A DNA stretch of 64,000 nt. Origin: Nymphaea colorata. Lineage: Eukaryota > Streptophyta > Magnoliopsida > Nymphaeales > Nymphaeaceae. Position numbers and translations under genes: made by a program. The notes beneath the pieces are model-generated. The model did no database searches and was not told the origin of the DNA. It worked only from the letters and a program-made list of their open reading frames with translations. Positions 1 through 29,417 of this stretch are shown piece after piece (position 1 is the first letter of the stretch; each line of letters begins with the position of its first letter). The stretch covers positions 5,589,503 through 5,653,502 of the forward strand of contig NC_045143.1 in NCBI RefSeq assembly GCF_008831285.2. Direction: 5' to 3'.

Positions 1-91
1 TTGTACTTCTTTTATTAGGAAAGTTCACCACATGAATGCAAGTTATTACCTGCTTTACCTACATTTGCCTTACCGCTGCTGTGCATTACAG

Positions 92-3000
92 CTTCTCGAG
101 ATGTTGATGAAAAATTGTGGTGACGTTGTCCACATGCATGTAGCCGAGAGGGACGTTCTACACCAAATGGTGAAGATTGTTAGAAAAAGGGTAAATTGAT
201 TCTTGCACCAATTAGGCTATGCTCTATCCAGTGCTTGAAGCTTTCGGTTCTAACTTTCAATGTTTGTTTGCAGCCTGTTGGGCATGTCAGGGAGAAGATC
301 TTGTCTCTTATTGACACCTGGCAAGAAGCTTTTGGTGGGCCAAGGGCAAGATATCCACAATATTATGCTGCATACCAAGAGTTATTGGTAGATATCATTT
401 CCTTTTTGGTGAAAGATACACACACACACTCACCAAGTGGTTCATTGGACATGCATAGGAGTGATGTAAAAATTTTCATATATTTGATGGGATGCCTCAC
501 CTATTTGTATCGCACAGCATATAGCACATAAAGCAGCATAGCTTTTTCCCGTTTCTTCAAGAGCCTTTTCCAGTGTCTCCCAGAATAACATTGACAGTAG
601 CTATTCATATATTAGTGACATACTAGTGGAATGCATTTATAAGATCTGGAACATTTAGCACTTTAGACACCCAAAAATCAGCAGCCTGAATCAGCTTCTA
701 GATCTTTTAAAAATGAGAGTTAGTGAAATAATTCAAGTTGAAGCACCTTTGAGTAGTCAAGAATAAAAAAAATATATAAAGATTCAGAATATGAAAAATG
801 CACATGCAACTATAGCTTCTTGAATGATCCCATGGCTTCCTTGGCCTGATTAACAAATGACAAATGTTTCATCTACATGCTTCTAGCACTTCACAGTTCA
901 TTTGTCTCCAGAGTGCAGGTGCTGTATTTCCACAAAGATCTGAGGGAGCTGCTCCCATATTCACTCCTCCTCAAACACAGCCTCTGTCAAGTTACACTCA
1001 ATCCTTGACTGGCCCAGATTATCAGCGAGCAATCGGTTCAGAGTTTCCAACTTTGAGGTAGATGCAACTTATGTTTATGTGCGACATAAATTCCAGTGGA
1101 TAAATTTGTAGCCTAGGATCTCATTCAATTCATAACACAACTGTTTTGATAATTTCACCCTTCTTTTTCAACCTTAGCAAAGTAGTGGGGTAAACTTAGG
1201 TTTTCCTGTGATTAGTTTATGTATTACTGTCTTGTAGATCTGTTCAATTTATGTTGCATTGTTCCGCTAGATGTACAAATATTGCATTTATGCTACTTTT
1301 TCAATTTATTTCTAGAAATGAAGTAAATATATAATCCTTAGGAGTTAGGAGTTGTTGCTATCACAGGGAGAGTTAGGGATGAGAAACACACAATCAGCGT
1401 ACAGGGTCAGTTTAACTCATTAGATGCTTATTCATGGTTGCAATGTTTCCATAACCAGCAAGGGTTGTTTAACTTGTCTTGGCTCATATAAGCTCATTAA
1501 TATATGTTGTTATATATATATTACATATTATACATCTCATTTTGTGTTACATGTAAGATACTCTATGTAATGTTCTGTGGAGTTCAGATGTCTTGTAAAT
1601 TTTGTATGTATTTACTTTGCACATACATATATTTTTTCAAGATCAATTTTGATAGCTTTAAATGTCAGGTTTTGATCTACTTACAAGTTACAACAAACTG
1701 CTCGACTTGTTTATTATGTGTTTCTGTGCTATTTGTCAACAGTCTTCATTATTAATGAATCTGAAGAATAGCTGGACAATTGGTCCACTTACATGATAAT
1801 GTTTGCAACTCAACTTTAGAATGGGCCGATTTGTCTTTCTCAACAGGATGCCTTCATTGACATAATTTTTTGTCAGAAAGAAAAATGATTTTTTTTTCTC
1901 TGTAGCTTTAATGTCCTTTTATTGGATGATAGTAGCTCTGTAACAGCTCACTCTTGATTTAACATAAATTTGAGTCAAACAATGTCAAGCTAGCTCTCTC
2001 ATGATTTTAGGATCATCCTGACCTTGCCTAGGCATTGTCTCTTTCTTTTTCTGTCAATGTGTGCCAAGTTGTCATCTATAATCGTGATGAATTAGTTGAA
2101 AAATAGATTATCTGCATATGGTTGCACCTTTATGAACTGAATCTTTTATCCATTTTCCCTCCTCATTTTTTCTTTTTTCCTTTGTTAGCCTTACGGAAAT
2201 CCAGAATGCTCGCGGTATAATGGATGTTCTTGCTGAAATGTTAAATGCTTTAGAGCCAGGAAATAAGGAGGTAATGTGGTCGACAAGCCAATCGTGTATT
2301 TTTAACTGTTCAATCTAGATTGTTTTTCTAATCTGGGAACTTTTTCAGCCCTCACAATTAGACATGTGCAATAACCATATTTTGAAATCTTTATATAAAG
2401 GATAAAAGTTGCTTTAGTTTTGCAGCTTGCTGAAATGCTGTTTTACTTTGCAGGCTCTCAAACAAGAGGTAATTGTAGACCTGGTTGAACAGTGTCGTTC
2501 TTATAAACAGAGAGTTGTTCAGCTTGTGAATACTACTACTTCGTAAGAATTTCAACTTCCTTATTGTATTATTAAAATAAATGTGTGTACTCAATTATTA
2601 TATACAAACATGATTTGCAGAATTGCAATTATTAGTATTTGTGTAAATCTTGTTCCAATTTTCATCATGGACTGGGCTTCTGGGTTGTATGAATTGCAAC
2701 TATTGCTGATGTTAATTGTTTTTATTCACAGGGACGAGGAATTGCTTTGTCAGGGCTTATCACTGAATGATGATTTGGATAGGCTTCTCTCTAAGCATGA
2801 TGTAATTTCTTCAGGTACTTCTGTTCATCCTGAGACGCAAAAAACAACTTCAGCATTTTTAGGCATTGGTGATGGGTCAGGCGTCAGTAACACTAGTTCA
2901 GCAAAGATGGACAAGGGGTAATATGATACTTCTTGAATTTCAGTCTTTTCCAGCTTTTTGATGATGCAGTGCTATGGTCTTCTCTTTGCCTTGTTATTGT

Positions 3001-3622
3001 ATCCGGTGATTTAATGGCACGTGATGAAATGATTTTTTAGGGCCATTCATGTGCATGAACAATGTGCACTTAGCCATGAGTTCATGACTTTGAATAGTGT
3101 CTTTGTTGCATCCTGGTCAGGTCAATGACCAAGTCCATCGGGATCCAAGTTTTTTTGTCAATTCTGAGCAGTTGTTTGCATGCCTTGAAATGAGGATTCC
3201 CGTAAACCTTGAATGAGGATTCCCATAAACCTATCTCTATTATTATCCAGTCACTTACTTTGATTTAGCTGAACTTAAATTGATTACTAGTCTGTCTGCT
3301 TAATATTCTCCGTTGCTTTTGAAACCTAAGTTCAAGAGATTATCATCAATTTCGCAATCTTGAGTTGTAGATACACTGTTTTCGGATCATTCTACCTATA
3401 CATATCTATTTGGTCGTCAACCTGATAACCCATAAGTTCATGACATACTTACAACATACTTATTTGACAATGTTGCATTTTCGGCTGAGTACCTGAAATC
3501 CTGACTAGTCCAGCTAGTTGATTGAATCAGTTATGAACTGGCTTCTGTTGCCCAACCAGCAACTGGTTGATCAAAGTAGTCAACCAGTCAGCCTAGTTAT
3601 TTGTCAGGCAACTAATCCATGA

Positions 3623-3669
<47 letters not shown>

Positions 3670-6029
3670 GAAGGTTAATTCGTGAAACCACGTATTTGTG
3701 ATTGGCATGTGTGTTGCGGAGCTTTGCAACGCGCACGTTCCATGTGTGTGGTGCACACAGCCAAAAAGTGGCTGTAGGAATCCACATCTTCTTTATATAT
3801 ATATGTGGGTGTTTGTCTATATATATATAGTCGATCAACATGGACTGAGTGAAGCTGCATAGTCTTTTCATGGTCTTGAATAAACTGAGTCCAACTTCCA
3901 ATTTGGACAACTTAGTTGATAACTGTGTCATGGCTGTTGTAACTTAGATCGACTCTTGCTAAGGACAGACATGAGGGTGATAGACAGTGGCTCAACCTCA
4001 GGGCTTCTTTATGAAAAGTTCACTGATGTTACACAGCGGAGCACCCTATAAATCTAGATTGTAAGAAACAGCCTTGTCATCTTATGATTCAATTATATAA
4101 AAGAATATAATTATCTATTCACCTAAACAAACTAGCAGGCCCTCTAGGCAAACTGTGTGCAGTGTCATTTCATATTGAAACAATGGCCATCATTCTTTGG
4201 AGAATTGGATTTTACAAGTTTTTGCCGTTCATCTCTTAGGGCTGTTTTGGTCTTGTCCTTGTGTTTTCAGCTTATTTCTGGGTTAGCATTTGAGGTCTTA
4301 GTACAATTTAAAGATGCACCTACTGTTTAGAATGTTTCTTAATGCAGATAAATTGTTAACTAAAATAGGTGATATGCAGTTTTGAAATCTGAACTTAAAA
4401 TATAGGAACCTCTAGTATATAGTAGAAGAAATCTTCAAATCCCCACTTTTTGTTGCTTTTGCAAAAGGTGGAGATTTGTTGCCGTATGGAGATAATGATT
4501 GTTTAAGTCATTGTCATCTAAATTTTAGTCCAACAGGAATGGCAAGGATTTTTGCTAAAAATTTGGGGAGTGCAAATAAAACTTTAAACCAAAACCTTGT
4601 GCAGCAGGTAGCCTTGCAAATCCGAGTCATATACAAGGCCAAGAATAGTATTTTAGTTATTAGATGAGCCTGCCAACCCAATCTAAGTTACAATTACTGC
4701 AGCTTTTTTTAAAAAAAATTGCTTCTGATTTATTTCACAAAACGTGTGCCTCAGAAGTAGGCCAAAATGTTGCATGCGAGTTTTTAGACTGTCCTGTTTT
4801 CCTTCTAAGTTTATGTACATTCAAGCTGAATATTGCATGCTGCAGTTTTAGAAGTGATACTGTTCAGTGTAGGTCCTCGTCAAGCAGCTCTGCAAATCAA
4901 CCTCCCATGCAGCAGCTACTGTTACCTGCACCACCAGCTGCAGCCACAGCTCCTAGTCCCGTTATCGATCCTAAGATGGACCTTCTAAGTGGTGACGACT
5001 ACCAATCACCTTCCAGCAATGATATCCGAGCTCTAGTTCCTGTTGGTGAACCATCTGCGCTTGCCTCCCGGCCCCAGCCTCAGTTGTCACAGGACTTGAT
5101 TGTGCTTTCGGAACCATTTGCTCAGGATTCACCTACTACCACTTCCCTTGATTCCCAGATGAATGTACCAACATCACAGACATCCCAGGTTCAGAATCTG
5201 TCACAAACACCACCACAGCAGCAACAATCACAGCCTATATTTTATCCAAATGAAAGTCTTTCCTATGTTGTGGGACCTCAGCAACAGCAGATGCAGCATA
5301 CCCTCTACTCAAATGGAGTTGTCCCCCTGGCCACACAGTCACTGCAGCAGATAGAGCCTACAGTATATTCAAATGGAGCTTTCCCAACAATGGGAGCACC
5401 TCAACAGATGCAGGCACAGATGCAGCGTGCTGTATATCCAAATGGGGGTCTGCCAAACATTGGAGCACCCCAGTATGATCAGGCGGTTTACTTACAAAGG
5501 GTGAATGTAAATCAAATCCATCCTGCGTGGAGCACGCAGTTTGCAAACTTGAGCCCGCATCAGCAGAATGCCTTTTATGGTATGATAAGTGTCTTTCTGT
5601 TTTGATAGAAATTCGAGGATTCCATCTGTTTCCAACTTTTTAGTTTTGCCATCCTACAAAGCAGATGATGTGTGCTTATGCCTCATTGATTTACTCCTTT
5701 TGTCCAATTTCACAGGCGCCCCACAGAGGCTTCCTCCTGCACCCTGGGATGTCCAGCCCATCCAGACTCAATCTATGGCCTTTGCTTCTATCCAGCAGCC
5801 AGGGGTGCAGTTTCCTGACCAGAGGACTGCATACTACTTTGCAACAGCGCAGGACTTATCTCAAAGGGCACGTGGTCTTTCTCTCCAAGATAATAGATAC
5901 GTGAGTCCTTACCAGACTTCTGAATCTTACTTGCAGCCCAAGAATCAAGCTAAGCCTGAGGACAAACTCTTTGGTGATCTCGTAAACATTGCAAAGACAA
6001 AATCCAAACCCTCTGCTTCCGTCAGTTGA
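92..6029 (+). CDS. TOL: TOM1-like (TOL) VHS-GAT ubiquitin-binding sorting protein, 5' end outside window (block A)
   Basis: Visible exons are 92-190, 274-387, 912-1057, 2189-2270, 2454-2542, 2732-2917, 4873-5579 and 5716-6029. All junctions are GT-AG and the frame stays open for 578 codons to TGA. The first two exons encode the C-terminal half of the VHS domain ([17 protein letters not shown], then DTWQEAFGG). A linker exon carries the [12 protein letters not shown] stretch, and exons 2189-2917 encode the GAT domain ([45 protein letters not shown]). The tail is Gln/Pro-rich with repeated Y-x-N-G motifs and ends in a conserved [15 protein letters not shown] segment. TOLs are known as ESCRT-0-like adaptors that collect ubiquitinated plasma-membrane cargo at endosomes. 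This is the only one of three local copies with no lesion in what can be seen; the start codon and N-terminal VHS lie upstream of the window. Confidence 0.93.
3624..3666. repeat. (AT)n microsatellite in TOL intron
   Basis: An uninterrupted AT dinucleotide run lies in the 2-kb intron between the GAT exon and the large Gln-rich exon. The matching intron part is deleted from block C, so no other copy exists for comparison. Confidence 0.95.
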
Positions 6030-6379: not shown

Positions 6380-6475
6380 GTCTCTTTGGAGACATCTTAT
6401 AAAATTGAGACGATACTAAGAGAAAATTAGCATGACCCTTGCATAAGGATGACACAAATATGAAAGTTACAAGAG
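6380..6475 (+). pseudogene. U6 snRNA-like pseudogene, block A
   Basis: The stretch follows spliceosomal U6 RNA from its 5' stem-loop (GTCTCTTTGGAGACATC at 6380) through the AAAATTG-ACGATAC region, the AGAAAATTAGCATG segment and the GCATAAGGATGACAC segment. The normally invariant ACAGAGA box is mutated to a TAAGAGA-like form, and several stem positions differ. I see neither the plant upstream sequence element nor a correctly spaced TATA box before it. I read it as a dead retro-copy. Related copies sit at the same place in blocks B and C, so insertion came before the triplication. Confidence 0.8.
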
Positions 6476-7823
6476 TTACACAGGAGCCAACGTTGACGTT
6501 GATGCGGAATAGGTACGAAGGAGGCAATCTGGATGCCGCCTCATTAACTTTTATGGCTTTGAAGACGGAGGGAGACGGTTCGGCCAAGCACACCTAGATT
6601 CGGCCTGGCAACTTCTAGCATGAACAGAAGCACCACTCCGTCTGGCAGGCTCAAACCGTACAAGAGATGGTGATGTGCGAGCTATATATATTACATAGGG
6701 GGAGAGGGAGAGAATTGAATTGTTCTTTTGTCGATACAAGAACAGAAACGCTGGAAAAGGAACAGAGCTAACGCCCCAGAAGTTCACATTTTTAAGGCTT
6801 AAGGAACAGTAATCGAAGGCTAATCAAAATTTCGTTTACCATTCAAAGAAGGTTTGTTATTCTGCTCGTTGACGGTCATAAAGGCATTGAAAGACCTGCC
6901 AAAAGCACCAAAAAAAAGGGAAAAAATATCGAAAAATCTTCCAACAGCTTGCAATCGCTCTACTGCTCAGAGAAGGTAGGATGAAGAAAAAGACATACAC
7001 AGCGGATAAGGGTGAACATCCATGGAAACAGACATGCCAATGCATTCAGATCTCGCAGCGATGCAAGTGAAGAAGCTGTAGATGATGTGTAAGCAAGCAC
7101 ACATGCATAATCCCAAATGGCGCTAGTAGTAGCTTGCACACATTCATGAATAAGACACCAAATGATTTCAAAAGTTTGCATAGGATGTCAGGATCCCATT
7201 GGCCACCAGCGCACGAGTGCTACAAGTAGGTTCAACACCTCAGTCCGGTGCACAACACATGTACTGCTGGTGCAGTTGTTAACTTAGGCTTTAATGAAAT
7301 GCATAAATTTCATTTCGGATTGTGCATATAAGGTTCTTCATATGTATGTGACACAATATTTTCACAACGACCAATTTTGACAACCTTCGCTTCTATCTTT
7401 ATCTCTCTTATCAAAAAATGTGATTTGAACGGAGAGAACAAGGAGAGAGATGCGGATAGAAGTCAGTTGACAAGATTTGGAGAAGTCGGGAACTTTACTG
7501 ATATAAAAGAAATGTGTGAAACCAATCCGATTTTAAACTGGTTGATTATGCCCTTCATTTAGAGTTCATTTGAAAAAAAAACATACAGATACAATATGCA
7601 TGTCTAAAAACACATAAATCAACATAAAGTCATGTTTTTTTAATATTTAAGATGAGTTTGAGAAGGTAAACATTTCAGACTGGTGATTTTAGAATAGATT
7701 ATTAACTTTTTGGATGTTAAGATCACAACTATAAGAAAGTTGACACAAAAAATGAGCAAAAAATGTTAAAAATGAAGTTTGGTAAAACCAACCTCAATAT
7801 GGAACTGCTTGAATGTGTTAAAT

Positions 7824-7855
<32 letters not shown>

Positions 7856-9319: not shown

Positions 9320-9599
9320 CTTGTGGGACCAATCCCCAACTCTGCAACTCTGAAGCCAGTCTCGATCTCAAGATTCTCAACATTGCATTATGCAGAGGCA
9401 TCATCGAGCCCGAGCAGCTCGACTCCACCGGTAATCTACCGGTGGACAGATTACGTCAAGTCAGAACCAAAAGATCCCAAACAAGAAAAAAAAAATGGTG
9501 GGTAGTTCACCTCGAAATGCATGAGAATTGGGATCGGCAGATCGAGTTGAGGAAACGGGTTTTGCTGTCTTTCAGAAGAGGACGAGCTCGGAAGAGCTC
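9320..9599 (-). pseudogene. NFD6-like pseudogene, block A
   Basis: On the minus strand the two exon remnants are 9599-9511 and 9435-9320, with the same GT-AG boundaries as the intact block C copy. Homology stops at about 9600, before the start codon, so the first ATG is lost. Serine TCA in exon 1 has become TGA (9572-9574), and a 7-bp deletion further on shifts the frame. Exon 2 still reads CSGSMMPLHNA and SQSWGLVPQG-like sequence but has lost one codon and several conserved residues. Confidence 0.8.
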
Positions 9600-9655
9600 A
9601 AACAAGGGAAGGAAAAAGTAACCGTCGAAGGCTTTTGCAGAAATATTCCTCTTCG

Positions 9656-10506
9656 CGTCGGTTGGGACTCCCCTCGTCTTCGTCTTCGTCTTCGTCTTCT
9701 CATCTTCGTCCTCCACCGCTGCCTCACCCTGCTGCTGCCTCAACTCCCACCGCAGCCTCAACTCCCACCGCAGCCTCAACACTGAAAAGGAACTCCTGCT
9801 GTGTAGGTAATCCTCGTGTGTTGCTGGTGATCCGCTGACTCTGCGTTCCTCTCTCTTCCGCCACAACACAGACTTGTTGCTCGCTCAGTGGATCTGCTTG
9901 AGTTGCCACAGGAAACATTGTCAACTCGTTGCATGGGCTGAAAAACAATCAGGTGGGGGTTTTCATTTTCTGATACAAGCTTCCTCAACAACTCTCTCTC
10001 GTCATAGCAATAGGCAGCGACTTTCTCATTCCTTTTCCTTGACTAGTTGACGTTGTCTTCTTCTCTACTGCTTCCTGGAACTGATCATCTTTCTCTTCCA
10101 TCTTTTTCTCTATTGTTTTTTTTCCTTTTTAATTAATGATCTTCAAGACCGCCTAATTTTGTGATACGTTTGGCACTTATTTTCGGTTGCTGTTTTTGAC
10201 TGCCCTTTCCTGCCTTAATCGGTTATCATTGCTTAGGTGGCTAGGTTCGCATGGCTTGGCTTAGGAGATCTTTACCGCATGAGGATCTATAGGATTCTCC
10301 AACTCTGCTGGCTTAATTGTTAGAGACGAGTGCATGGTTTCATTGTCGTTAGTATACAATTTAAGCTTCTATCCTCTTTATAAGGGAAAGGGATCACACT
10401 GAACAAACACTACAATTTTTCTGAATTTTTTTTTTCCATCTTTTTATTTCAAAAAAATTATTTTCAAAATTCTTTTTTCAATTCCAGGGAAGCAGAACGG
10501 AAGGAA
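9656..10506 (+). promoter_or_regulatory. Leader/promoter region of IPK2 copy A
   Basis: The region matches 18,481-19,168 in front of intact IPK2. It contains a short (CGTCTT)n run near 9676-9702 and a 20-bp direct repeat near 9737-9779 that is single in block B. A shared GTGGGGG donor-like site (about 9953) and a polypyrimidine stretch ending CAG at about 10,489 suggest an intron in the 5' UTR; this is inference. Confidence 0.5.
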
Positions 10507-11461
10507 ATGTTGCTGAAAGCCCTGCCGCACCAGGTCGCCGGCCACCAAGCGGCCGAAGGAAATCTCGGACCCCTTGTCGACGGCGCAGTCCACTTCTTCA
10601 AGCCGCTGCAAGACCATGATCGGGGGTCGAAGGAGGTGGGGTTTTACTGATCCTTCTGGTCGAACTCCCAGTTGCCACCGAATGTCCATCGATTCTTCCC
10701 ATCCTTCTACGGTACCCAACTTCTAGAAGCTTCGGATGGTTTCGGTCCCCGTGAGCACCTGGTCATCGACGACGTCGTCTCATCCCTTTTTCGTCCCTCC
10801 GTCATTAACGTCAAAATCGGGTCCAGTATCCCGGCGCGTCGGATGAGTACGTGGACAAATGCGTCGTGGAGAAGGGCAGAACTTCCACCAGTTTCAAACT
10901 GTGGTTTAGGATTTCTGGGTTGCAGGTGTACAAGAGTGAAGAACCGCGTTTATGGAAGCCTGGGAGGCGTTGGGTGAAGGCCATTCTCAGTGCTGATCAA
11001 GTCAGATCCGTCCTGAGGGCGTTCGTTTCATCGAACGCTTCTTCGAGTTCGCCGGATTGCGCACATGCACCCGCCATCTTTGGTGGTTCGACCGGAGTTC
11101 TGGCTCAGTTGCTGGAATTGAAGCAGTGGTTCGAGAAGCAGACGTTCTACCACTTGGTGGTCCGACCGGAGTTCTGGCTCAGTTGCTGGAATTGAAGCAG
11201 TGGTTCGAGAAGCAGACGTTCTACCACTTCTACTCGACGTCGGTGCTGTTGATGTATGGCCGGGATGAGGCCGACGGTAGCCGGCCGGTGGTGGCTTCTG
11301 TGAAGCTCGTGGATTTCGCGCATGTTGTGGATGGGGAAGGAGTGATTGATCACAACTTCTTGGGAGGATTGTGTTCGTTGATAAAGTTTGTGGAGGATAT
11401 ACTTGAGAGCGTTGATGGTAGTGTGGCTTGGACTAGCAAACTTGGGTCTGCAGCAGATTGA
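10507..11461 (+). pseudogene. IPK2: IPK2 (inositol polyphosphate multikinase) pseudogene, block A
   Basis: This copy aligns along its whole length with the intact gene at 19,169-20,053. Codon 48 is TGA (10,648-10,650) where block B has CAA. The kinase signature reads PSVINVKIG, so the catalytic Asp of PxxxDxKxG is Asn. A deletion of 7 bp just after it removes the RTW codons and shifts frame. A 3-bp length difference occurs in the VDKCV region, and a 74-bp segment is duplicated in tandem (11,081-11,228), shifting frame again. The 3' end, including DFAHVVDGEGVIDHNFLGG, is otherwise nearly identical to block B, so decay looks recent. Confidence 0.92.
11081..11228 (+). repeat. 74-bp tandem duplication inside IPK2 pseudogene
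   Basis: Two nearly identical 74-bp units start at 11,081 and 11,155, each covering the codons for GVLAQLLELKQWFEKQTFYH. The intact block B copy has one unit. Because 74 is not a multiple of three, the frame after the second unit is changed. Confidence 0.95.
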
Positions 11462-12364
11462 TATACTCAAACGCAGTTAGAATCTGCATTTTAGTGTGAT
11501 CACAGACTCTTGCTTTAAGTGGTTACATGCTTTCTTTTGAATATTATATGTAGGAAACTTTCAAGAGTTGGATGTTTGGCGATTGACGTTTTCTTCGACG
11601 TCTCTGTATTTGGTCTTCTTCTTTGTCTCCTTTCTTGGAATTTCTATTCCCAGCAAATACCTTCTTTATTTTAAGTAAATTTCATATGATAGGTTTCTCC
11701 GGCCCCCAATTATCCAGACAAGCTGGATATTGTGTACTGAACTTAAATCCCATATCTTGCACGTAGTTCTGCAGAAATGGCTTATAGTGGAGTAGCACTC
11801 ACCTTACGTTGACCGCTTTGTTAAGTTACACCGGAGATTTGTGGAGCATTTATCACCTTATGATCCTCAACGGTTAAATGCATCCAGAAGCCCTGTGTCC
11901 GAGGGGACTCTGCATGCATTATATACCAAATTATCTAGATAAGTTAGGACATGAAAACCTTTTGCATAGTGAAGCACAAAAGGGTTTAAATCTTCCTTCT
12001 TGTCCCATTTAATTAGTCACCTGCTCCCTGTGTATGGGTTTTCAGGTATTCAATAATTTTGAAGATAATTAATTTTTTCATGAAGTATCCACAAGAGTTG
12101 CTCCATTCATAATATGCATATCTTACCCATTTAAGAACTATCAGCGAAATATACTCAAAAGTAGCGACCGATCAAACCAAATTTTCATCAAAATATGCAT
12201 ATATGCTAGCTTGGTTGCCTCTTCATTTCAAGTCGACACCACTAAAAGAATAATTAAAAAACTGTCTTGACAATTCTCAGAATTACTGGATACTTCATGA
12301 CTGCTTCTCTGTTACACGCCTGTGCCAGTAAAAGTTAAATATCATAAACAAAGACAAGTATCTT
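11462..12364. other. Downstream flank of IPK2 pseudogene, including inverted segment
   Basis: The first 600 bp match 20,054-20,683 in the same orientation. Positions 12,094-12,348 match block B 20,684-20,920 in the opposite orientation. A 13-bp inverted repeat (TCATGAAGTATCC) lies at 12,078-12,090 and 12,288-12,300. No gene is seen. Confidence 0.75.
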
Positions 12365-12504
12365 ATGACTGTTGATTGATTATTCACAATGGTGATGATT
12401 ATTTATAATATAATTGAAGATGAAATTTATTGTTGCTTGATACTCATTGTTAAACGGGACAAGAAGGAAGATTTAAACCTTGTGAATAATCAATCAACAG
12501 TCAT
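12365..12504. repeat. Hairpin-forming foldback element, 25-bp arms
   Basis: Positions 12,365-12,389 and 12,480-12,504 are perfect reverse complements of each other (25 bp), enclosing about 90 bp of AT-rich sequence. It lies about 155 bp beyond the stop codon of the minus-strand gene at 12,660. It could be a tiny MITE or a hairpin in that gene's 3' region. I see no clear target duplication. Confidence 0.85.
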
Positions 12505-12659
12505 CAGCTTTCAGTTTTGGTCGTTCCATTTTCGTCTTCTGCGGGAAGAGAATGAACAAAGATGCAGACGGAGGAGGGAAGCGATTTTCACCACAACCAC
12601 CATCACAAAATAGTGAGGGAAATGGATGAAAACTTTGAAATGGAAAGAGGGAAAGATGA

Positions 12660-13190: not shown

Positions 13191-13423
13191 CAGGGCAGGA
13201 CTCGTCCTTTTATGAAGGGGAGAGAGATGGGAAGAAGGGTGAGCGTCTTTTTTTTATGGGGGCCTAGGAGAAGGCCAATGCCCTCCAGAATTCGACCATC
13301 ACCGGAGAAAGTGGGTGGGGAGGAACGGAACTTCGCCTGCCCGACGGTCGCCCGGTGCGTCTTCTCACTCCGTCGGGAGTGGAAGACAGCTTGTGAATGT
13401 GGCGATTGATAACACGGAGCGCC

Positions 13424-13511
13424 AAAAAAGAGAGGTGGGGGCGGAGCTCTCGGAGACTCAAAAAAGAGAGGTGGGGCGGAGCACTCGGAGACTCAGAAAA
13501 GAGAGGTGGGG
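13424..13511. repeat. 35/36-bp tandem repeat, 2.5 units
   Basis: Units begin at 13,424 (36 bp), 13,460 (35 bp) and 13,495 (partial). Each starts with an A-run followed by GAGAGGTGGGG. They lie upstream of the minus-strand gene at 12,660-13,190. Confidence 0.9.
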
Positions 13512-15908: not shown

Positions 15909-18477
15909 GTACATACGAAGGAGGCAATGTGGATGCCGCCTCGTCAACTTTTATGGTTTTGAAGACGGAGGGAGACGGTTCGAACAAGCACACCTACCTG
16001 GCGACATTTACCATCTTCTAGCATGAACAGAGTCCGGCAGGCTCAAACTGTAAAAGAGATGGTAATGTGCGAGCTATATATATTATATAGTGGGGAAAGA
16101 GGGAGAGAGAGAGAGAGAGTTGAATTGTTCTTTTGTCGATACAAGAACAGCAACGCTGGAAAATGAACAGTGCTAACGCCCCAGAAGTTTACATTTACGG
16201 CTTAAGGAACAGTGATCGAAGGCTAATCAAAATTTTGTTTCTCATTCAAAGAAGGTTGTTATTCTGCTCGTTGACAGTCATAAAGGCATTGAAAGACCTG
16301 ACAAAAACATTAAAAAAAAGGGAAAAGAAAAATGTCAAAAATCTTCCAACAGCTTGCAATCGCACTACTGCTCAGAGAAGGTAGGATGAAGAAAAAGACA
16401 TACACAGCGGATAAGAGTGAACATCCATGGAAACAGACATGCCAATGCATTCAGATCTTGCAGCGATGCAAGTGAAGAAGCTGTAGATGATGTGTAAGCA
16501 AGCACAGATGCATAATCCCAAATGGCGCTAGTATTAGCTTGCACACATTCATGAATAAGACACCAAATGATTTCAAAAGTTTGCATAGGATGTCAGGATC
16601 CCATTGGCCACCAGCGCACGGGTGCTACAAGTGGGATTAACACCTCAGTCCGGTGCACAACAGATGTACTGCTGGTGCAGTTGTTCACTTAGGCTTTAAA
16701 GAAATGCATAAATTTCATTTCGGATTGTATATATAAGGTTTTTCATATGTATGGGACACAATATTTTCACAACGACCAATTTTGACAACCTTGGCTTCTA
16801 TCTCTCTTATCAAAAATGTGATTTGAACGGAGAGAACAAGGAGAGAGATACGGATAGAAGTCAGTTAACATGACTGGGAGAAGTCGGGAACTTTATTCAT
16901 ATAATGTGTGAAACCAATCGGATTTTAAACTGGTTGACTATGCCCTTCATTTAGAGTTCATTTGAAAAAAAGCCATACAGATACAATATGCATGCCTAAA
17001 AACACATAAATCAACATAAAGTCATGTTTTTTTAATATTTAAGATGAGTCTGAGAATCTAAACATTTCAGACTGTTGATTTTAGAATAGATCATTAACTT
17101 TTTGGATGTTAAGATCACAACTATAAGAAAGTTGACAGAAAAGATGAGCAAAAAATGTTAAAAATGAAGTTTGGCAAAACCAACCTCAATATGGAACTGC
17201 TTGAATGTTTTTAATTATATATATATATATGAGCAAAAAATGTTAAAAATGAAGTTTGGTAAAACCAACCTCAATATGGAACTGCTTGAAATGTTTTTAA
17301 TTATATATATATATGTGTGTGTGCGCGTGCGCGCACTTGCACGTGCATCTGCACTCACACTCATGCGACTTAAATTGGCCAAAACAAAGGAGAACATGTA
17401 CATAGTGCACAAGGTTCAGAGAACCAACTCAAACTGAACCAAGCTTAATTGTATAATTCTCAGAAGAGTAAATTGTCCATTAATTGCTCTCAAATAGGAA
17501 TTACTCTGCTCTTTGGTCGGCAAATAAAGTTACTAGCTCATATTTTTCTTACAATAGGAGCAGCTGGACAAGTGGGCATGCATGAATTCCCAAATTTAAA
17601 GATGTGGATGGCAGGGTTCGGCAATTTATCTACATTCTCATTACAGTGAGATGTAATCGGGACAGACAATGTGGTAAGGCAATGCATGCCAACTGACCTT
17701 TGCAACCCCTAGGGCGACCCAATGTGTCATGGATGCCCTTAAGCTCAACGCGGACAGTAGTCACAAGACAACGTAAGCTTCTTGATATCATTGATTCGGT
17801 CAAGAATTTATTTTGCCATTGATTGACTAGATTATAGTTCCTATCACGAGGCAACTTTGATCAGGTTGGCTGTTAAAACAATGTACAGTTGTGGTTTTTG
17901 CTCTACCGGTATGTAAGATGCTCTGTTATGTTATTGAATCTCAAAGACAAATACAGATGCACATAAAAAAGGACCTATTTAATGATTTACTCATGCTTTT
18001 GGTCAGAAAATGCCAAGTTCCAAATTGAAGAACATGGTGGACTGCAAGTCCAGAACAGTCCAATAGGGCATGGTTTACGCCTTGATCTTCACTTCGGGCC
18101 TGGGAACGTGTTCATCGTCTTAGCCCAATTGCCGGCACATAAGTGTGAGGGAAGGATCTTGTTGGTTTAAAACTTTAGATCCTTTTAACTGTTAAGCCAA
18201 GCATCTCTCTGGTTCAAATCTTTTCCCTCCTTGGGATATCTAAATTAGATTGCAACAGTAAGCGGTCACCTTATACTCTTTTAACTTTGTTCTAGATGGA
18301 GTACCCATTGTATGCATGCAATCGTAGATAAGTTTTGTTGCAACTACATTGTAAATGTATAGAGCATCATATACTAAACTGGAAGAGGAAAAAAAATGAA
18401 CGCGCCATGTATACATTACGGGAAGACGACGATTATCGCTAACAGTACCCGGTTGCTATTCCCAAGGAAGCATGGAA
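15909..18477. other. Spacer of block B, no gene seen
   Basis: The spacer corresponds to 6476-8953 in block A. It contains a (GA)n run near 16,096-16,117 and an 85-bp tandem duplication at 17,144-17,312. It lacks the hAT insert of block A and joins at about 18,477 directly to the IPK2 leader, skipping the whole NFD6-like gene. Confidence 0.7.
17144..17312. repeat. 85-bp tandem duplication with AT microsatellite
   Basis: Two units start at 17,144 and 17,229, each running from ATGAGCAAAAAATG to a (TA)n tract. Blocks A and C have one unit, so this arose in block B after the triplication. Confidence 0.9.
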
Positions 18478-18480
18478 GAC

Positions 18481-20053: not shown

Positions 20054-21756
20054 TATACTCAAACGCAGTTAGAATCTGCATTTTAGTGTGATCACAGACT
20101 CTTGCTTTAAGTGGTTACATGCTTTCTTTTGAATATTATATGTAGGAAACTTTCAAGAGTTGGATGTTTGGCGATTGACGTTTTCTTCGACGTCTCTGTA
20201 TTTGGTCTTCTTCTTTGTCCTCTTTCTTGGAATTTCTATTCCCAGCAAATACTTTCTTTGTTTTCTGTAAGTTTCATAAGATAGGTTTCTCCGGCTCCCA
20301 ATTATCAAGACAAGCTGGATATTGTGGACTGAACTTGAAATCCCATATCTTGCACGTGGTTCTGCTGAAATTGCTTATAGTGGAGTAGCACTCACCTTAC
20401 GTTGACCGCTTTGTTAAGTTACACCGGAGATTTGTGGAGCATGATTTTGGAGCATTTATCACCTTATGATCCTCAACGGTTAAATGCATCCAGAAGCCCT
20501 GTGTCCGAGGGGACTCTGCATGCATTATACACCAAATTATCTAGATAAGTTAGGACATGAAAACCTTTTGCATAGTGGAGCACAAAAGGGTTTAAATCTT
20601 CCTTCTTGTCCCATTTAATTAGTCACCAGCTCCCTGTGTATGGGTTTGCAGGGTATTCAATAATTTTGAAGATAATTAATTTCTTTATGATATTTAACTT
20701 TTACTGGCATAGGCGTGTAACAGAGAAGCAGTCATGGAGTATCCAGTAATTCTGAGAATTGTCAAGACAGTTTTTTAATTATTTTTTTAGTGGTGTCGAC
20801 TTGAAATGAAGAGGCAATCAAGCTAGCATATATGCATATTTTGATCGTTTGCTACTTTTGAGTATCCTTCGCTGATAGTTCTTAAATGGGTAAGATATGC
20901 ATATTATGAATGGAGAAACTACTGAACCTCCCACTGTTGGTTGTATTTCTTGCCAGTAGATTTGTGTACCAACGCTCCTAGATACATTGTTCCCCTTCTA
21001 TGAACATCAGAGGTAGTGTTTCTTACATTGGCAATATTTTTCTTCCTTTTCTTGGAAAAAGTTGTTTAGCAGCAGCAATGCATGATACTGTTTTCTTTTT
21101 TTCTCTGTCCAAATTGCCTTTTAGTAACAGTCGGTTTAGACTTAAATTTTCCATGCAACTTTTCTAGTTTTAAGTTTTTATCCAACCAGAATAGCCCATC
21201 CGCACAAGAAGACAAAGTTTGGATCATGTGGATACATTTTGCAATGTCTTTAGTAAAGTGTTTGTGTTAAATGAGATTGCTCTCCAAGTTATGGCTTTTT
21301 TGTGAATTTCCTTCTGAAAAAAAAATAAAAGTTTCTAAAATGTAATGCTTCATGCATGTCCCGTCCACATACTTTAGAACTTAAATTTATACAGCCAGGT
21401 TGTCCTTCTCTATTGTCCTGTACATTATACCCTGACTATCTTCATAAATACAAGGGTTTTGGCTCTTTTTTAGGATTATTTCATGTGCATTGTTGTATAA
21501 GCTTGCAGCTTCCACCTTATGTCATGATGCTTTCTTAAGTGGTTCGTTCAGTTAATAATTTTGTTAAGCTACTGGCTTTTGTTGGCTCCTAAGGTCCTTG
21601 ACAGATTGATTGAGAATCAGTGAAATAGGCAGTCAAAACAGCAGTTCTTAGTCATGTATTCCAGCATTTTTGGTGGCATAACTACAGACCCAGCTGTAAT
21701 GGTAATCCCAATGGATGATCACATGGTTCATATATCAGCACTGAGAATGAAGATTG
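20054..21756. other. IPK2 downstream flank and joint to block C
   Basis: Up to 20,683 it matches block A. Positions 20,684-20,920 match block A 12,094-12,348 in reverse orientation. From about 20,920 to 21,756 the sequence has no partner in the window. It may derive from a TOL intron lying left of the window, but this cannot be tested here. No coding exon is seen. Confidence 0.6.
20684..20920. repeat. Segment inverted relative to block A
   Basis: Starts TTTATGATATTTAAC, the reverse complement of block A 12,334-12,348, and continues collinearly in reverse to about 12,094. Block B lacks about 18 bp of it. Sequence to the left matches block A in direct orientation; sequence to the right does not match. 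Confidence 0.88.
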
Positions 21757-24700
21757 TTGATGAAAAATTGTGGTGACGTTGTCCACATGCATGTAGCCGA
21801 GAGGGACGTTCTACATCAAATGGTGAAGATTGTTAGAAAAAGGGTAAATTGACTCTTGCGCTATGCTCTATCCAGTGCTTGAAGTTTTTGGTTCTAACTT
21901 TCAATGTTTGTTTGCAGCCTGTTGGGCATGTCAGGGAGAAGATCTTGTCTCTTGTTGACACCTGGCAAGAAGCTTTTGGTGGGCCAAGGGCCAGATATCC
22001 ACAATATTATGCTGCATACCGAGAATTATTGGTAGATATCATTTTCCTTTTTGGTGAAAGATATATATATATATATATATTTGTATACACACACTCCAAG
22101 TGGTTCATTGGACATGCGTAGGAGTGATGTAAAAATTTTCATATATTTGATTGGACGCTTCACCTATTTGTATCGCACAGCATTTAGCACATAAAGCAGC
22201 ATAGCTTTTTCCCGTTTCTTCAAGAGCCTTTTCCAGTGTCTCCCAGAATAACATTCGCAGTAGCTATTCATGTATTAGCAACATACTAGTGGAATGCATT
22301 TATAAGATATGGAACATTTAGCACTTTAGACACCCAAAAATCAGCAGCCTGAATCACCTTCTAATCTTCTAGATCTTTTGAAAATGAGAGTTAGTGAAAT
22401 AATTCAAGTTGAAGCACCTTTGAGTAGTCAAGAATCAACAAAAATATATGAAGATTCAGAATATGAAAATGGCACATGCAACTATGACTTCTTGAATGAT
22501 CCCATGGCTTCCTTGACCTGATTAACAAATGACAAAATGTTTCATCTACATGCTTCTAGCAATTCACTTGTCTCCAGAGTGCAGGTGCTGTATTTTCCAA
22601 AAAGATCTGAGGGAGCTGCTCCCATATTCACTCCTCCTCAAACACAGCCTCTGTCAAGTTACACTCAATCCTTGACTGGCCCAGATTATCAGCGAGCAAT
22701 CAGTTCAGAGTTTCCAACTTTGAGGTAGAGGCAAGTTATGTTTATGTGCGACATAAATTCACAGTGGATAAATTTGTAGCCTAGGATCTCATTTAATTCA
22801 TAACACAACTATTTTGATAATTTCACCCTAATTTTTCATCCTTAAGAAAGTAGTGGGGCAAACTTAGGTTTTCCAGTGACTGGTTTATGTTTTACTTTCT
22901 TGTAGATCTGTTCAATTTATGTTGCCTTGTTCCTCTAGATGTACAAATATTGCATTTATGCTACTTTTTATTTCTAGAAATGAAGTAAATATATAATCCT
23001 TAGGAGTTGTTGCTATCACGCGGAGAGTTAGGGATGAGAAACACACAATCAGCGTACAGGGTCAGTTTGACTCATTAGATGATTATTCATGGTTGCCATC
23101 AATGTCTCCGTAACCAGCAAGGGTTGCTTAACTTGTCTTGGCTCATATAATCTCATTAATATATGCATTACATATTATACATCACATTTTGTGTTATATG
23201 TAAGATACTCTATATAATGTTATGTGGAGTTCAGATGTCTTGTAAATTTTGTATGTATTTACTTTGCACATACATATATTTTGTCAAGATCAATTTTGAT
23301 AGCTCTAAATGTCAGGTTTTGATCTACTTACAAGTTACAACAAACTCCTGCTCGACTTGTTTATTATGTGTTTCTGTGCTATTTGTCAACAGTCTTCATT
23401 ATTAATGAATCTGAAGAATTGCTGGACAATTGGTCCACTTACATGATAATGTTTGCAACCCAACTTTAGAATGGGCCGATTTGTCTTTCTCAACAGGATG
23501 CTTTCACTGACATAATTTTTTGTCAGAAAGAAAATTGATTTTTTTTCTCTGTAGCTTGAATGTCCTTTTATTGGATGATAGTAGCTCTGTAACAGCTCAC
23601 TCTTGATTTAACATAAATTTGAGTCAAACAATGTCAAGCTAGCTGTCTCATGATTTTAGGATCATCCTGACCTTGCCTAGGCATTGTCTCGTTCTTTTTC
23701 TGTCAATGTGTGCCAAGTTGTCATCTATAATCGTGATGAATTAGTTGAAAAATAGATTATCTGCATATGGTTGCACCTTTATGAACCGAATCTTTTATCA
23801 ATTTCCCTCCTCATTTTTTCTTTTTTCCTTTGTTAGCCTTACGGAAATCCAGAATGCTCGCGGTATAATGGATGTTCTTGTTGAAATGTTAAATGCTTTA
23901 GAGCCAGGAAATAAGGAGGTAATGTGGTCGACAAGCCAATAGTGTATTTTTAACTGTTCAATCTAGATTGTTTTTCTAATCTGGGAACTTTTCCAGCCCT
24001 CACAATTAGACGTGCAATAACCATATTTTGAAATCTTTATATAAAGGATAAAAGTTGCTTTAGTTTTGCAGCTTGCTGAAACGCTGTTTTACTTTGCAGG
24101 CTCTCAAACAAGAGGTAATTGTAGACCTGGTTGAACAGTGTCGTTCTTATAAACAGAGAGTTGTTCAGCTTGTGAATACTACTACTTCGTAAGAATTCCA
24201 ACTTCCTTATTGTATTATTAAAATAAATGTGTGTACTCAATTATAATATACAACAATGATATGCAGAATTGCAATTATTAGTATTTGTGTAAATCTTGTT
24301 GCAATTTTCAACATGGACTGGGCTTCTGGGTTGTATGAATTGCAACTATTGCTGATGTTAGTTGTTTTTATTCACAGAGACGAGGAATTGCTTTGTCAGG
24401 GCTTATCACTGAATGATGATTTGGAAAGGCTTCTCTCTAAGCATGATGTAATTTCTTCTGGTATTGCAGTTCATCCTGAGACGAAAAAAACTACTTCAGC
24501 ATTTTTAGGCATTGGTGATGGGTCAGGTGTCAGTAACACTAGTTCAGCAAAGATGAACAAGGGGTAATATGATACTTCTTGAATTTCTGTCTTTTCCAGC
24601 TTTTTGATGATGCAGTGCTATTGTCTTCTCTTTGCCTTGTTATTGTATGCGGTGATTTAATGGCACGTGACCAAATGATTTTTTAGGGCCATTCATGTGC

Positions 24701-25580
24701 ATGAACAATGTGCACTTAGCCATGAGTTCATGACTTTGAATAGTGTCTTTGTAGCATCCTGGTCAGGACAATGACCAAGTCCATCGGGATCCAAGTTGTT
24801 TTTTCAATTCCGAGCAGTTGTTTGCATGCCTTGAAATGAGGATTCCCGTAAACCTTGAATGAGGATTCCCATAAACCTATCTCTATTATTATCCAGTCAC
24901 TTACTTTGATTTAGCTGAACTTATACTGATTACTAGTCTCAACAGCAATGGGAGCACCTCAACAGCTGCAGGCACAGATGCAGCCTGCGGTATATCCAAA
25001 TGGGGGTATGCCAAACATGGGATCACCCCACTATGATCAGGCGGTTACTTACAAAGGGTGAATGTAAATCAAACTGCCTGGAGCACACAGTTTGCAAACT
25101 TGAGCCCGCATCAGCAGAATGCCATTTATGGCATGATAAGCGTCTTTCTGTTTTGATAGAAATTCGAGGATTCCATCTCTTTCCAACTCTTTAGTTTTGT
25201 CATCTTACAAAGTAGATGATGTGTGCTTATGTCTCATTGATTTACTCCTTTTGTACGATTTCACAGGCGCCCCACAGAGGCTTCCTCCAGCACCCTGGGA
25301 TGTCCAGCCCATCCAGACTCAAGCTACGGCCATTGCTTTTATCCAGCAGCCAGGGTTGCAGTTTCCTGACCAGAGGACTGCATACTAGTTTGCTACAGCG
25401 CAGCACTTATCTCAAAGGGCACGAGGCCTTTCACTCCAAGATAATAGATACGCGAGTCCTTACCAGACTTCTGAATCTTACTTGCAGCCCAAGAATCAAG
25501 CTAAGCCTGAGGACAAACTCTTTGGTGATCTTGTAAACATTGCGAAGACAAAATCCAAACCCTCTGCTTCTGTTAGTTGA
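21757..25580 (+). pseudogene. TOL: TOL pseudogene, block C
   Basis: Exon remnants are 21,757-21,843 (5' end and acceptor lost), 21,918-22,031, 22,578-22,724, 23,837-23,918, 24,100-24,188, 24,378-24,563, about 24,941-25,140 and 25,267-25,580. Lesions against block A: truncation before the last VHS exons; a 1-bp insertion near 22,592 in the linker exon; a roughly 2.1-kb deletion (block A about 3293-5385) that removes the end of one intron, its acceptor and most of the Gln-rich exon; a 1-bp deletion near 25,045 and a small deletion near 25,072; a donor changed from GT to GC at 25,141; and TAC changed to TAG at 25,386-25,388 in the last exon. The GAT-encoding exons are still nearly identical to block A. 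Confidence 0.93.
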
Positions 25581-25922: not shown

Positions 25923-26018
25923 GTCTCTTTGGAGACATCCAATAAAATTGGAACGATATGGAGAGAAAATTAGCATGACCCTTGCATAAGGATGACACAA
26001 ATATTAAACTTACAAGAG
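25923..26018 (+). pseudogene. U6 snRNA-like pseudogene, block C
   Basis: This is the copy closest to real U6: it keeps GGAGACATCC, AAAATTGGAACGATA and the AGAAAATTAGCATG core. The ACAGAGA box reads TGGAGAGA and the 3' part is AT-substituted. No upstream sequence element or TATA box is seen at the right distance. Confidence 0.82.
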
Positions 26019-27240
26019 GTACACAGGACGTAACGTTGACGTTGATGCCGAATAGATAGGAAGGAGGCAATCTGGATGCCGCCTCATTAACTTTTATGGC
26101 TTTGAAGAGGGAGACGGTTCGGCCAAGCACGCCTAGATTCGACCTGGCAACATTTATCATCTTCTAGCATGAACAGAGTCTGGCAGGCTCAAACTGTAAA
26201 AGAGATGGTGATGTGCAAGCCATATATATTATATAGGTGGGAGAGATGGAGAGAGAGAGAGAATTGAATTGATCTTTTGTCGATACAAGAACAGAAACGC
26301 TGGAAAAGGAACAGAGACAACGCCCCAGAAGTTTACATTTAAGGCTTAAGGAACAGTAATCGAAGGCTAATCAAAATTTCGTTTGCCATTCAAATAAGGT
26401 TGTTATTCTGCTCGTTGATGGTCATAAAGGCAATGAAAGACCTGCCAAAAACATCAAAAAAAAGGGGAAATATATCAAAAATCTTCCAACAACTTGCAAT
26501 CGTACCACTGCTCAGAGAAGGTAGGATGAAGAAAAAGACACACAGCGGATAATAGTCAACACCCATGGAAACAAACAAGCCAATGCATTCAGAGTTTGCC
26601 GCTATGCAAGTGAAGAAGCTTTAGAAGATGTGTAAGCACACATGCATAATCCCAAATGGCGCTAGTAGTAGCTTGCACACATTCATGAATAGATGTACTG
26701 CTGGTGCAGTTGTTAACTTAGGCTTTAATGAAATGCATAAATTTCATTTCAGATTGTACATATAAGGTATGGGACATAATATTTTCACAACGACCAATTT
26801 TGACAACCTTGGCTTCTATCTTTATCTCTCTTATCAAAAATATGATTTGAATGGAGAGAACAAGGAGAGAGATACGGACAGAAGCCAGTTAACAAGATTT
26901 GGAGAAGTCGGGAACTTTATTCATACAAAAGAAATGTGTGAAACCAATCCGATTTTAAACTGGTTGACTATGCCCTTCATTTAGAGTTCATTTTTAAAAT
27001 AGCCATACAGATACAATATGCATGTCTAAAAACACATAAATCAACATAAAATCAGTTTTTTTTAATATTTAAGATGAGTTTGAGAAGCTAAAACATTTCA
27101 GACTGTTGATTTTAGAATAGATTATTAACTTTTTGGATGTTAAGATCACAACTATAAGAAAGCTGACAGAAAAAATGAGCAAAAAATGTTTAAAATGATG
27201 TTTGGTAAAACCAACCTCAATATGGGACTGCTTGAATGTG

Positions 27241-27286
<46 letters not shown>

Positions 27287-28810
27287 TGTGTGTGTGTGTG
27301 TGCACTTGCACATGCATCTGCACCCACACTCATGCGACTTAAGGAGAACATGTACACAGTTGCACAAGGTTCAAATGACCAAATCAAACTGATTCAAGCT
27401 TATTTGTATAATTCTCAGAAGAGTAAATTGTCCATTAATTGCTCTCAAATAGGAATTACTCTGCTCTGTGGTCAGCAAATAAAGTTACGATTATTTATTA
27501 GCTCATATTTTTTTCAACAATATGACCAGCTGGACAAGTGGACATGCATGTATTTCCAAATTTAAAGATGTGGATGGCAGGGCTCGACAATTTATGTACA
27601 TTCTCATTACAGTGAGATGTAATCAGACAGACAAAGTGCTAATGTGTGCAGAAGAATGCATGCCAACTGACCTTTGCAACCCCTAAGGTGATGCAATATG
27701 TCATGGATGTCCTTGAGCTCAATGCAGACAAGAGACAAGACAACGTAAGCTTGTTGATATCATTGATTCAATCAAGAATTTATTTTACCATTGATTGACT
27801 AGAGTTGATTGACTAGATTATAGTTCCTGTCACAAGGCATCTTTGGTCAGGTTTGCTGTTAAAACAATGTACAGTTGTGGTTTTTGCTCTACCAGTATGT
27901 AAGATGCTCTGTTATGTTATTGAATCTCATAGACAAATACAGATGCACATAAAAAAGGACCTAATTGATGATTTACTCATGCTTTTGGTCAGCAAATGCC
28001 AAGTTCCAAATTGAAGAACATGGTGGACTGCAAGTCCAGAATAGTCCAATAGGGCATGGTTTACGCCCTGATCTTCACTTCAGGCCTGGGAACGTGTTCA
28101 TCGTCTTAGCCCAATTGCCAGCACATAAGTGTGAGGGAAGGATCTTGTTGGTTTAACACTTTAGATCCTTTTAACTGTTAAGCCAAGCATCTCTCTAGTT
28201 CAAATCTTTTCCCTCCTTGAGATATCTAAATTAGATTGCAACAGTAAGCGGTCAACTTATAGTTTTTTAACTTTGTTCTAGATGGAGTACCCATTGTATG
28301 CTATCGTAGATAAGTTTTGTTGCAATTACATTGTAAATGTATAGAGCATCATATACTAAACTGGAAGAGAAAAAAAATGAACGCGCCATGTATACATTAC
28401 TGGGAGACGACGATTATCGCTAACATTACCCCGTTGCTATTCCCAAGGAAGCATGGAATTTTGCACATGAATTGGAAAAGGGAAGAAAATGTGCTGTCCA
28501 TCAACCAATGCCATTAGTACTGACTAATGGACAATTGGAATGGAATGATTTTCACCTAACAAAATCTAAACAAATTACAGACGCCTGCTAAGGCCACGTA
28601 CCAAAATCCATCATTTGAAACCCAAAAAACGAATCGACTGCTGTTGCTGACTACACAGATATCAACAAGTGATGGAAAATTGAAAATGAGCGCCAGCATA
28701 TGAACTGTAATAAATCCGGCAATTCTTAAAGCTGATACTAAGAAAATACCGAAAATTTTGGAATAAGAAGCGAAAACTACCATGAACCATGAAACCAGAA
28801 TAACGAAAGA
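26019..28810. other. Spacer of block C, no gene seen
   Basis: Shared with the spacers of A and B. It includes a (TA)n(TG)n microsatellite at 27,246-27,302 and keeps the roughly 150 bp around 27,950-28,090 that block A has lost. The stretch next to NFD6 probably contains that gene's 3' UTR. Confidence 0.65.
27246..27302. repeat. (TA)n(TG)n compound microsatellite
   Basis: A TA run followed by a TG run, longer than at the same site in blocks A (about 7824-7855) and B (about 17,305-17,322). Confidence 0.95.
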
Positions 28811-29212
28811 TCAAGTAAGCTCAGTTTCTTCATATTTCAAGTAGAACAAGGAAACGGGAATAAAATGGGTGGGAGTCTGTTCACCTTGTGGGACCAATCC
28901 CCAACTCTGCGACTCCGAAGCCAGTCTCGATCTCAACAGCGCAGACGCGATTGCATTATGCAGAGGCATCATCGAGCCCGAGCAGCTCAACTCCACCGGT
29001 AATCTACCGCATACAAATTATGTCAAGTCAGAACCAAAAGATCCCACAAGAAAAAAAAAATGGTGGGTAGTTCACCTCGAAATGCAGGAGAAGTGGGATC
29101 GGCACATAGAGGTTCGAGCTGGGGAAACGGGTTTTGCTGTCTTTGAGAAGAGGACGAGCCCGGAAGAGCTCAATCTAGCGGCTGCTCTCCTGAAGAGCAT
29201 GGTGGTCGCCAT
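28811..29212 (-). CDS. NFD6: NUCLEAR FUSION DEFECTIVE 6-like small organellar protein
   Basis: The minus-strand start is at 29,212-29,210 in a strong context (GCAGCCATGG), with an in-frame stop upstream. Exon 1 is 29,212-29,076 (MATTMLFRRAAARLSSSG..., an Arg/Ser/Ala-rich presequence typical of mitochondrial import). The GT-AG intron is 29,075-29,004. Exon 2 starts at 29,003 and encodes LPVELSCSGSMMPLHNAIAS then ALLRSRLASESQSWGLVPQ. A GTGAAC donor follows at 28,884; reading through it gives a stop at 28,811. The third exon of a spliced form was not resolved. The LPVEL-C-SMMPLH-ASALL pattern is that of the NFD6/NOXY2 family of small plant organelle proteins. This is the only intact copy in the window: A is broken and B has lost it. 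Confidence 0.75.
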
Positions 29213-29417
29213 GGCTGCCGGAGAAAGGGAACAAGACGGGAGAGAGAGAGTCGAGTTGAGTGAGACTTAGGGGTTTCCCAGTGACAGAAAATTACAATCT
29301 GGGCCTGTTTTATACCTGAAATAGCTGAAACAGCCTTGTTTTCAGAGGTCCAGAATTCTTTATGGTGCTTCCAATGCGCAGCATTTGCCCAAGACCACAG
29401 AAAATGAAGTGCACATC

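Follow-up and report, generated by a model that had tools for sequence, protein, structure and literature searches.

A three-fold tandem repeat with TOL, U6, NFD6-like and IPK2 copies in Nymphaea colorata, and two intact IPK2 genes

The tandem repeat

A 64,000-nucleotide stretch of the Nymphaea colorata genome (C6:5589503-5653502; here the window) carries tandem copies of four neighbouring elements. These are a TOM1-like gene with VHS and GAT domains, which we take to be TOL; a dead U6 copy; a gene that is presumably NFD6-like; and IPK2, an inositol polyphosphate multikinase (IPMK) gene. The segment made up of TOL, dead U6 and the NFD6 side is present three times in the window (copies A, B and C), at 86-95% identity in a comparison of the window with itself. 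A 99-9601 is collinear with C 21751-29173 and A 5555-12352 with B 15022-20920 (12352 pairs with 20680), both in several pieces, the long ones at E = 0.0. The first-pass annotation of this stretch had described a tandem triplicated block, and self-comparison recovers a collinear tandem repeat. The self-matches and the three U6 matches identify it as a multi-gene tandem copy; the repeat is real and beyond chance. Per 300 bases the copies differ by 1-11%, with higher values in the IPK2 5' region, and deletions, inserts and joints differ from copy to copy.

The comparison was extended to up to 224 kb around the window; negative coordinates are positions upstream of its start. The genome searched comprises 407,766,735 bases in 783 contigs (labelled C1, C3 and so on), and the best candidates were scored for TOL (67 of 67), the NFD6-like gene (10 of 10) and IPK2 (10 of 10).

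State of the gene copies

IPK2 occurs twice in the window, in A and B; block C contains none. In IPK2-A, which is disrupted, codon 48 is a TGA, 7 nt are deleted, 3 nt inserted and 74 nt duplicated internally. IPK2-B scores 154 bits against PF03770 (cut-off 22.2) and matches 4frf_A, named inositol polyphosphate multikinase alpha and presumably from Arabidopsis, with an E-value of 3.2e-89, as is expected of a plant IPMK. Within the window IPK2 is open only in B, as had been proposed. About 15 kb upstream of the window lies a further copy, IPK2-0, which is 96% identical to IPK2-B. All nine of nine IPK2 matches in the genome fall within five copies: A, B, 0, an inverted dead copy further upstream on C6 and a copy on C7. 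On C7 the frame downstream of the deletion is open and continues upstream (a 411-amino-acid open frame); a protein from a different start is possible.

IPK2-0 and IPK2-B differ by 21 synonymous changes over 207.3 sites and 16 nonsynonymous changes over 668.7 sites, giving a synonymous rate (Ks) of 0.109, a nonsynonymous rate (Ka) of 0.024 and a Ka/Ks of 0.22. When polarised with IPK2-A and the C7 copy, nine synonymous and six nonsynonymous changes fall on the IPK2-0 branch and ten and three on the IPK2-B branch, with two and four unpolarised. The binomial probability against the site ratio is 0.003 for IPK2-0 and 0.00008 for IPK2-B. Since the changes on each branch depart from the site ratio, both copies have been under purifying selection since they split. 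Codon 88 is Glu in 4frf, Gly in IPK2-B, Asn in IPK2-0 and the inverted copy, and Asp in IPK2-A and the C7 copy.

TOL-A is complete, with 638 codons in 10 exons and GT-AG introns throughout, and its model contains VHS (PF00790) followed by GAT (PF03127), the domain content expected of TOL. TOL-B is truncated. TOL-C does not contain exons 1-2, has a TAG inside exon 10, and carries an internal deletion of approximately 2.1 kb at 24939 that removes approximately 510 nt of the 707-nt exon 9. The nearest other TOL paralogue in the genome matches at 53-88% per exon, and there was no further close TOL gene among the candidates scored. Ka/Ks between A and C is 0.53 over exons 3-8; in the last exon it is 0.40 for A/B and 0.22 for A/C, all from few changes and the last with a stop in the TOL-C exon. 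Polarisation with an older TOL paralogue on C1 assigns four synonymous and four nonsynonymous changes to A and six and ten to C, with three and four unassigned; these counts, over 294 codons, give no statistical support for relaxed constraint on TOL-C. An apparent stop in TOL exon 3 in the Ka/Ks alignment was an artefact of aligning a cut exon and was not used.

The NFD6-like gene keeps its start codon together with exons 1-2 only in C. In NFD6-A the start codon is missing where the match to C ends, and a stop in the original frame can be read from the alignment and sequence. The NFD6-B exons are deleted, with approximately 700 bp gone relative to A 8954-9655. The TGA listed for NFD6 exon 1 falls at the exon/intron border. 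Other NFD6-like matches in the genome reach only 46-54%; there was no further close copy among the candidates scored, and the gene has no Pfam match. An open frame at 9528-9869 (-) extends out of the IPK2-A 5' region into what is left of NFD6-A exon 1, in the frame that would lead on to exon 2; it is probably due to chance.

The three U6 matches in the window score 68, 67.7 and 67.7 bits. All three copies have a two-base insertion in the ACAGAGA region, and none has the intact motif of a functional U6. The shared insertion makes it probable that U6 was dead before it was copied. A 29-base U6 pattern gave 0 forward and 0 reverse exact matches in the genome, a result that is silent on U6 genes one base off.

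The proposal that TOL is undamaged only in A and the NFD6-like gene intact only in C thus stands, and the two survivors are in different units: TOL-A and NFD6-C lie approximately 23 kb apart, compared with approximately 3 kb between TOL-A and NFD6-A. The further claim that gene number had returned to one each, which by the first-pass annotation's own terms another intact copy elsewhere in the genome would refute, does not stand. TOL and the NFD6-like gene each have one intact copy; IPK2 has two, both constrained, one of them upstream of the window and open over 294 codons.

Joints between units

Homology between A and C stops inside NFD6 exon 1, at 9601/29173. Past this point A enters the IPK2 5' region, while C enters the NFD6 start codon and a native, unrelated flank. 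For NFD6-A, the best reading is that the unit joint is the damage, rather than a later reciprocal loss; the damage to IPK2-A, TOL-B and TOL-C is either later or unplaced in time.

The joint between B and C bears on the order of genes within the unit. The IPK2-0 3' flank (-10851..-9672) matches the IPK2-B flank (20563..21732) at 92%, and TOL-C starts 23 bases past 21732, at 21755, the equivalent of A 102. In A, the equivalents of -9672 and 102 are 9.8 kb apart and span the TOL 5' side and first exons. On this comparison of flanks, the B-C joint corresponds to the IPK2-0-to-TOL-A stretch minus approximately 9.8 kb, which would place IPK2 before TOL in the unit. The likelier unit is consequently IPK2-TOL-U6-NFD6. 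The IPK2-0 3' flank contains 2.9 kb and 0.8 kb that are extra relative to A and B; gain there and loss in A/B are both possible.

The first-pass annotation had ordered all three blocks TOL-U6-NFD6-IPK2. This order is seen in A and B but not in C, and as a unit register it is probably wrong, since IPK2-0 precedes TOL-A and the B-C joint looks like the same stretch shortened. The surviving genes are ordered IPK2-0, TOL-A, IPK2-B, NFD6-C. Had the ancestor carried IPK2-TOL-NFD6, gene order would be unchanged save for the extra IPK2. With IPK2 first, the intact genes would lie in the outer units, with the decayed middle unit between them.

The features of the array are listed in Table 1.

Table 1. 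Features of the array and related copies, in window coordinates unless a contig is given
Feature	Position	Strand	Basis
Fourth IPK2, 5'-truncated, dead	near -21.7 kb	inverted	self-comparison
IPK2-0, intact, 294 codons	-15839..-14955 (C6:5573663-5574544)		genome search
TOL-A exons 1-2	-2399..-2299 and -1004..-926	+	gene model
TOL-A (TOM1-like; VHS and GAT), exons 3-10 of 10, intact	92..6029	+	gene model, domain search
U6-A relic	6380..6479	+	U6 match
NFD6-like A pseudogene, retaining exon 2 and the 3' part of exon 1	9321..9601	-	self-comparison
Proposed joint of tandem units, where NFD6 exon 1 passes into the IPK2-A upstream region	9601..9602	.	joint comparison
5' region of IPK2-A (type P2), partly common to IPK2-B (18484-19147), absent at IPK2-0	9602..10486	+	flank comparison
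IPK2-A pseudogene	10507..11461	+	codon alignment
255-bp stretch, in A opposite in orientation to B (20680-20920) and the IPK2-0 flank	12096..12352	-	self-comparison
Insert part 1, matches C3:25373874-25374832	12361..13460	+	genome search
Captured open reading frame, 176 amino acids, first start TTG	12660..13190	-	open frame list
Insert part 2, 96% to C11:13211006-13212441	13514..15008	+	genome search
24-bp inverted copy of U6 3' flank at insert/TOL-B joint, 8-bp overlap CCGCATCA	15006..15029	-	joint comparison
TOL-B remnant: tail of exon 9 and open exon 10	15022..15497	+	exon matches
U6-B relic	15813..15914	+	U6 match
Joint of NFD6-B deletion	18477..18478	.	joint comparison
IPK2-B, 294-codon open frame, PF03770	19169..20053	+	open frame, domain search
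Joint of IPK2-B 3' flank and TOL-C exon 3	21732..21755	.	self-comparison
TOL-C pseudogene	21755..25580	+	self-comparison, exon matches
U6-C relic	25923..26022	+	U6 match
NFD6-like C, intact exons 1 (29212-29076) and 2, native 5' flank; modelled without last exon	28885..29212	-	gene model
Fifth IPK2, 13-nt deletion near codon 28	C7:17375133-17376001		genome search

IPK2 5' regions and INTS7

The two intact IPK2 genes have different 5' regions. That of IPK2-0 (P1) is unrelated to the P2 region of A and B, the match being limited to the last 20-31 bases before the coding sequence. P1 is common to IPK2-0 and the C7 copy.

On C7, IPK2 adjoins a complete-looking INTS7 gene, whose N-terminal PF24436 match scores 39 bits, below the cut-off of 42 (E-value 7.2e-10). 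C6 has the 3' part of INTS7 (PF22966, PF24437) between the inverted IPK2 and IPK2-0, and stretches of C7 match the C6 frames of the INTS7 C-terminal part at 84-91%. The C6 region with the inverted truncated IPK2 and the INTS7 3' part spans -25158..-15869; the related IPK2-INTS7 segment is C7:17374963-17381058, and the INTS7 N-terminal part sits beyond that segment. Across the 224 kb of C6, the C7 stretch beyond the INTS7 3' part finds a match only over 300 bases at 69%, approximately 16 kb further on. As the C7 copy looks complete and C6 has the 3' part only, the INTS7 piece most likely moved from C7 to C6.

A more tentative and rather doubtful reading is that the kinase function was moved and divided: a piece from C7 with IPK2 and half of INTS7 would have come to C6, and tandem amplification would then have given two selected IPK2 genes, one with the old P1 and one with the new P2 5' region. 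The small IPK2 tree, ((0,inv),A,(B,C7)), runs against a C7 origin, as it joins C7 to IPK2-B and away from IPK2-0; its inner branches are very short, and on its own it does not favour a C7-to-C6 move of IPK2. If true, the reading would describe a natural promoter swap and perhaps a regulatory division of labour; the genome search gave no IPK2 beyond the five copies.

The insert in the middle unit

The approximately 2.6 kb between IPK2-A and TOL-B are foreign and match two other contigs. The first part is 94% identical to C3 over 12509-13460 and its left end is rearranged; the captured open reading frame within it is open both in the window and on C3, and has no Pfam match. The C11 piece is partly repeated elsewhere, with at least 50 matches listed for the whole query including its own copy (best 40 of 149 candidates scored). 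The 24-bp inverted U6 flank joins TOL exon 9 through the 8-bp overlap. Break repair by template switching fits the insert best; transposon capture is the alternative.

In yeast, templated and inverted insertions at repaired breaks are described as mostly about 5-34 bp and as arising by a foldback mechanism (PMC11724301). The 24-bp inverted local copy with its 8-bp overlap, beside longer distant pieces, resembles the insertions described there. The distant pieces differ from them in being approximately 1-1.5 kb long, with transposon capture as an alternative source.

Origin of the array

The array is probably the result of tandem amplification of an IPK2-TOL-U6-NFD6 segment to three units, followed by decay. 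Unit 1 would consist of IPK2-0, TOL-A, U6-A and the cut NFD6-A; unit 2 of IPK2-A, TOL-B, U6-B and the deleted NFD6-B; and unit 3 of IPK2-B, TOL-C, U6-C and NFD6-C. The mechanism may have been unequal exchange or template-switching repair. With the unit joint inside NFD6 exon 1, the first unit would have been born with a cut NFD6, and the position of the joint would explain why only the last unit keeps an NFD6-like gene with its own start and flank. In the first unit TOL would have survived together with the promoter side and exons 1-2. The remaining copies would have decayed through deletions, stops and the patchwork insertion, while the IPK2 genes of units 1 and 3 would have kept open, constrained frames, each with a 5' region unrelated to the other's. 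Expression of the surviving genes is presumed.

Several observations weigh against this explanation. The mismatch between P1 and P2 requires a later rearrangement at the left edge of unit 1, next to the truncated INTS7 and the inverted IPK2. Units 1 and 3 have diverged unevenly, with 113 differences in 3147 sites on the left (TOL exons 3-8 and introns) and 256 in 3714 on the right, and a mosaic origin or conversion is possible. Branch lengths likewise vary along the blocks (chi-square 39.7, 6 degrees of freedom), which suggests a mosaic history or conversion, short of proof. The small IPK2 tree is nearly a star (supports 87 and 91) and is too short for ordering events. Finally, the ancestral order is judged from this one genome. 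The older TOL paralogue on C1 is uninformative on this point because it has no IPK2 or NFD6-like match nearby among the genome-search matches listed.

A second explanation, in line with the first-pass annotation, is that a whole TOL-U6-NFD6-IPK2 unit was triplicated and reduced by reciprocal loss to one gene each, leaving the order TOL, IPK2, NFD6. It accounts for the NFD6 side being followed by P2 and IPK2 in both A and B, and for the single survival of TOL and the NFD6-like gene in separate blocks. It is unlikely, however: IPK2-0 is intact and constrained, which already refutes one gene each; block C has no IPK2; NFD6-A is cut precisely at the end of A/C homology; and the succession of IPK2-0 flank and TOL-A side is the one seen at the B-C joint. 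Most of what was first noted holds inside the window, with the exception of IPK2 in block C, and gives way beyond its edge. Triplication followed by loss does describe TOL and the NFD6-like gene, which survive once each in different units, but not IPK2.

Separate copy events could also mimic units: a TOL-to-NFD6 duplication, IPK2 copies moving with INTS7 pieces, and patchwork repair. The two unrelated IPK2 5' regions, the inverted IPK2 and truncated INTS7 copy shared with C7, the uneven divergence and the patchwork insert would all be expected. This explanation seems quite improbable, given that order and strand are kept through three consecutive copies for many kilobases and that the A and B joints have a P2 5' region in common.

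Tandem copies are generally known as a weak point of assemblies. Haplotypes or reads misplaced in tandem are nevertheless a very improbable source of this array, and misplaced haplotypes are unlikely because the surrounding 224 kb contain no N, the aligned pieces differ by 5-14%, and large deletions, inserts and joints are private to each copy; the published Nymphaea colorata assembly is moreover described as built with PacBio long reads (PMC7015852).

Comparison with known systems

Amplification of an IPK2-TOL-U6-NFD6 segment followed by decay would be an event of a known type, though its details are unusual. Ordinary tandem segmental duplication in plants gives neighbouring copies with joint truncations, stops, frameshifts and deletions. 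The same features are seen here. Unlike the ordinary case, the middle unit contains a two-source patchwork insert with an intact captured open reading frame, and the retained IPK2 pair has unrelated 5' regions.

The tandem duplication - random loss (TDRL) model has been applied mainly to mitochondrial gene order (e.g. PMC5745709). The array resembles it in the tandem copying of several genes, the loss of some copies and the survival of others in different units. It differs in that the locus is a nuclear plant locus, IPK2 keeps two intact copies, and the 'loss' of NFD6-A is best read as a duplication joint.

The locus is a well-preserved case of a tandem array with a probable unit joint inside a gene and a middle unit that has been eroded and refilled from two other contigs. 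IPK2, the sole kinase gene of its kind among the genome-search matches, is kept in two intact copies whose 5' regions differ. These two constrained genes under unrelated 5' regions, and the patchwork insert with its captured frame, are worth following. The locus also illustrates how a window edge can produce a tidy story: the IPK2 copy that contradicts a single intact gene in each block is found 15 kb beyond that edge.

To the right of the array lies an unrelated gene, represented by a frame at 36197-36589 (+) with a tesmin/TSO1-like CXC domain (PF03638).

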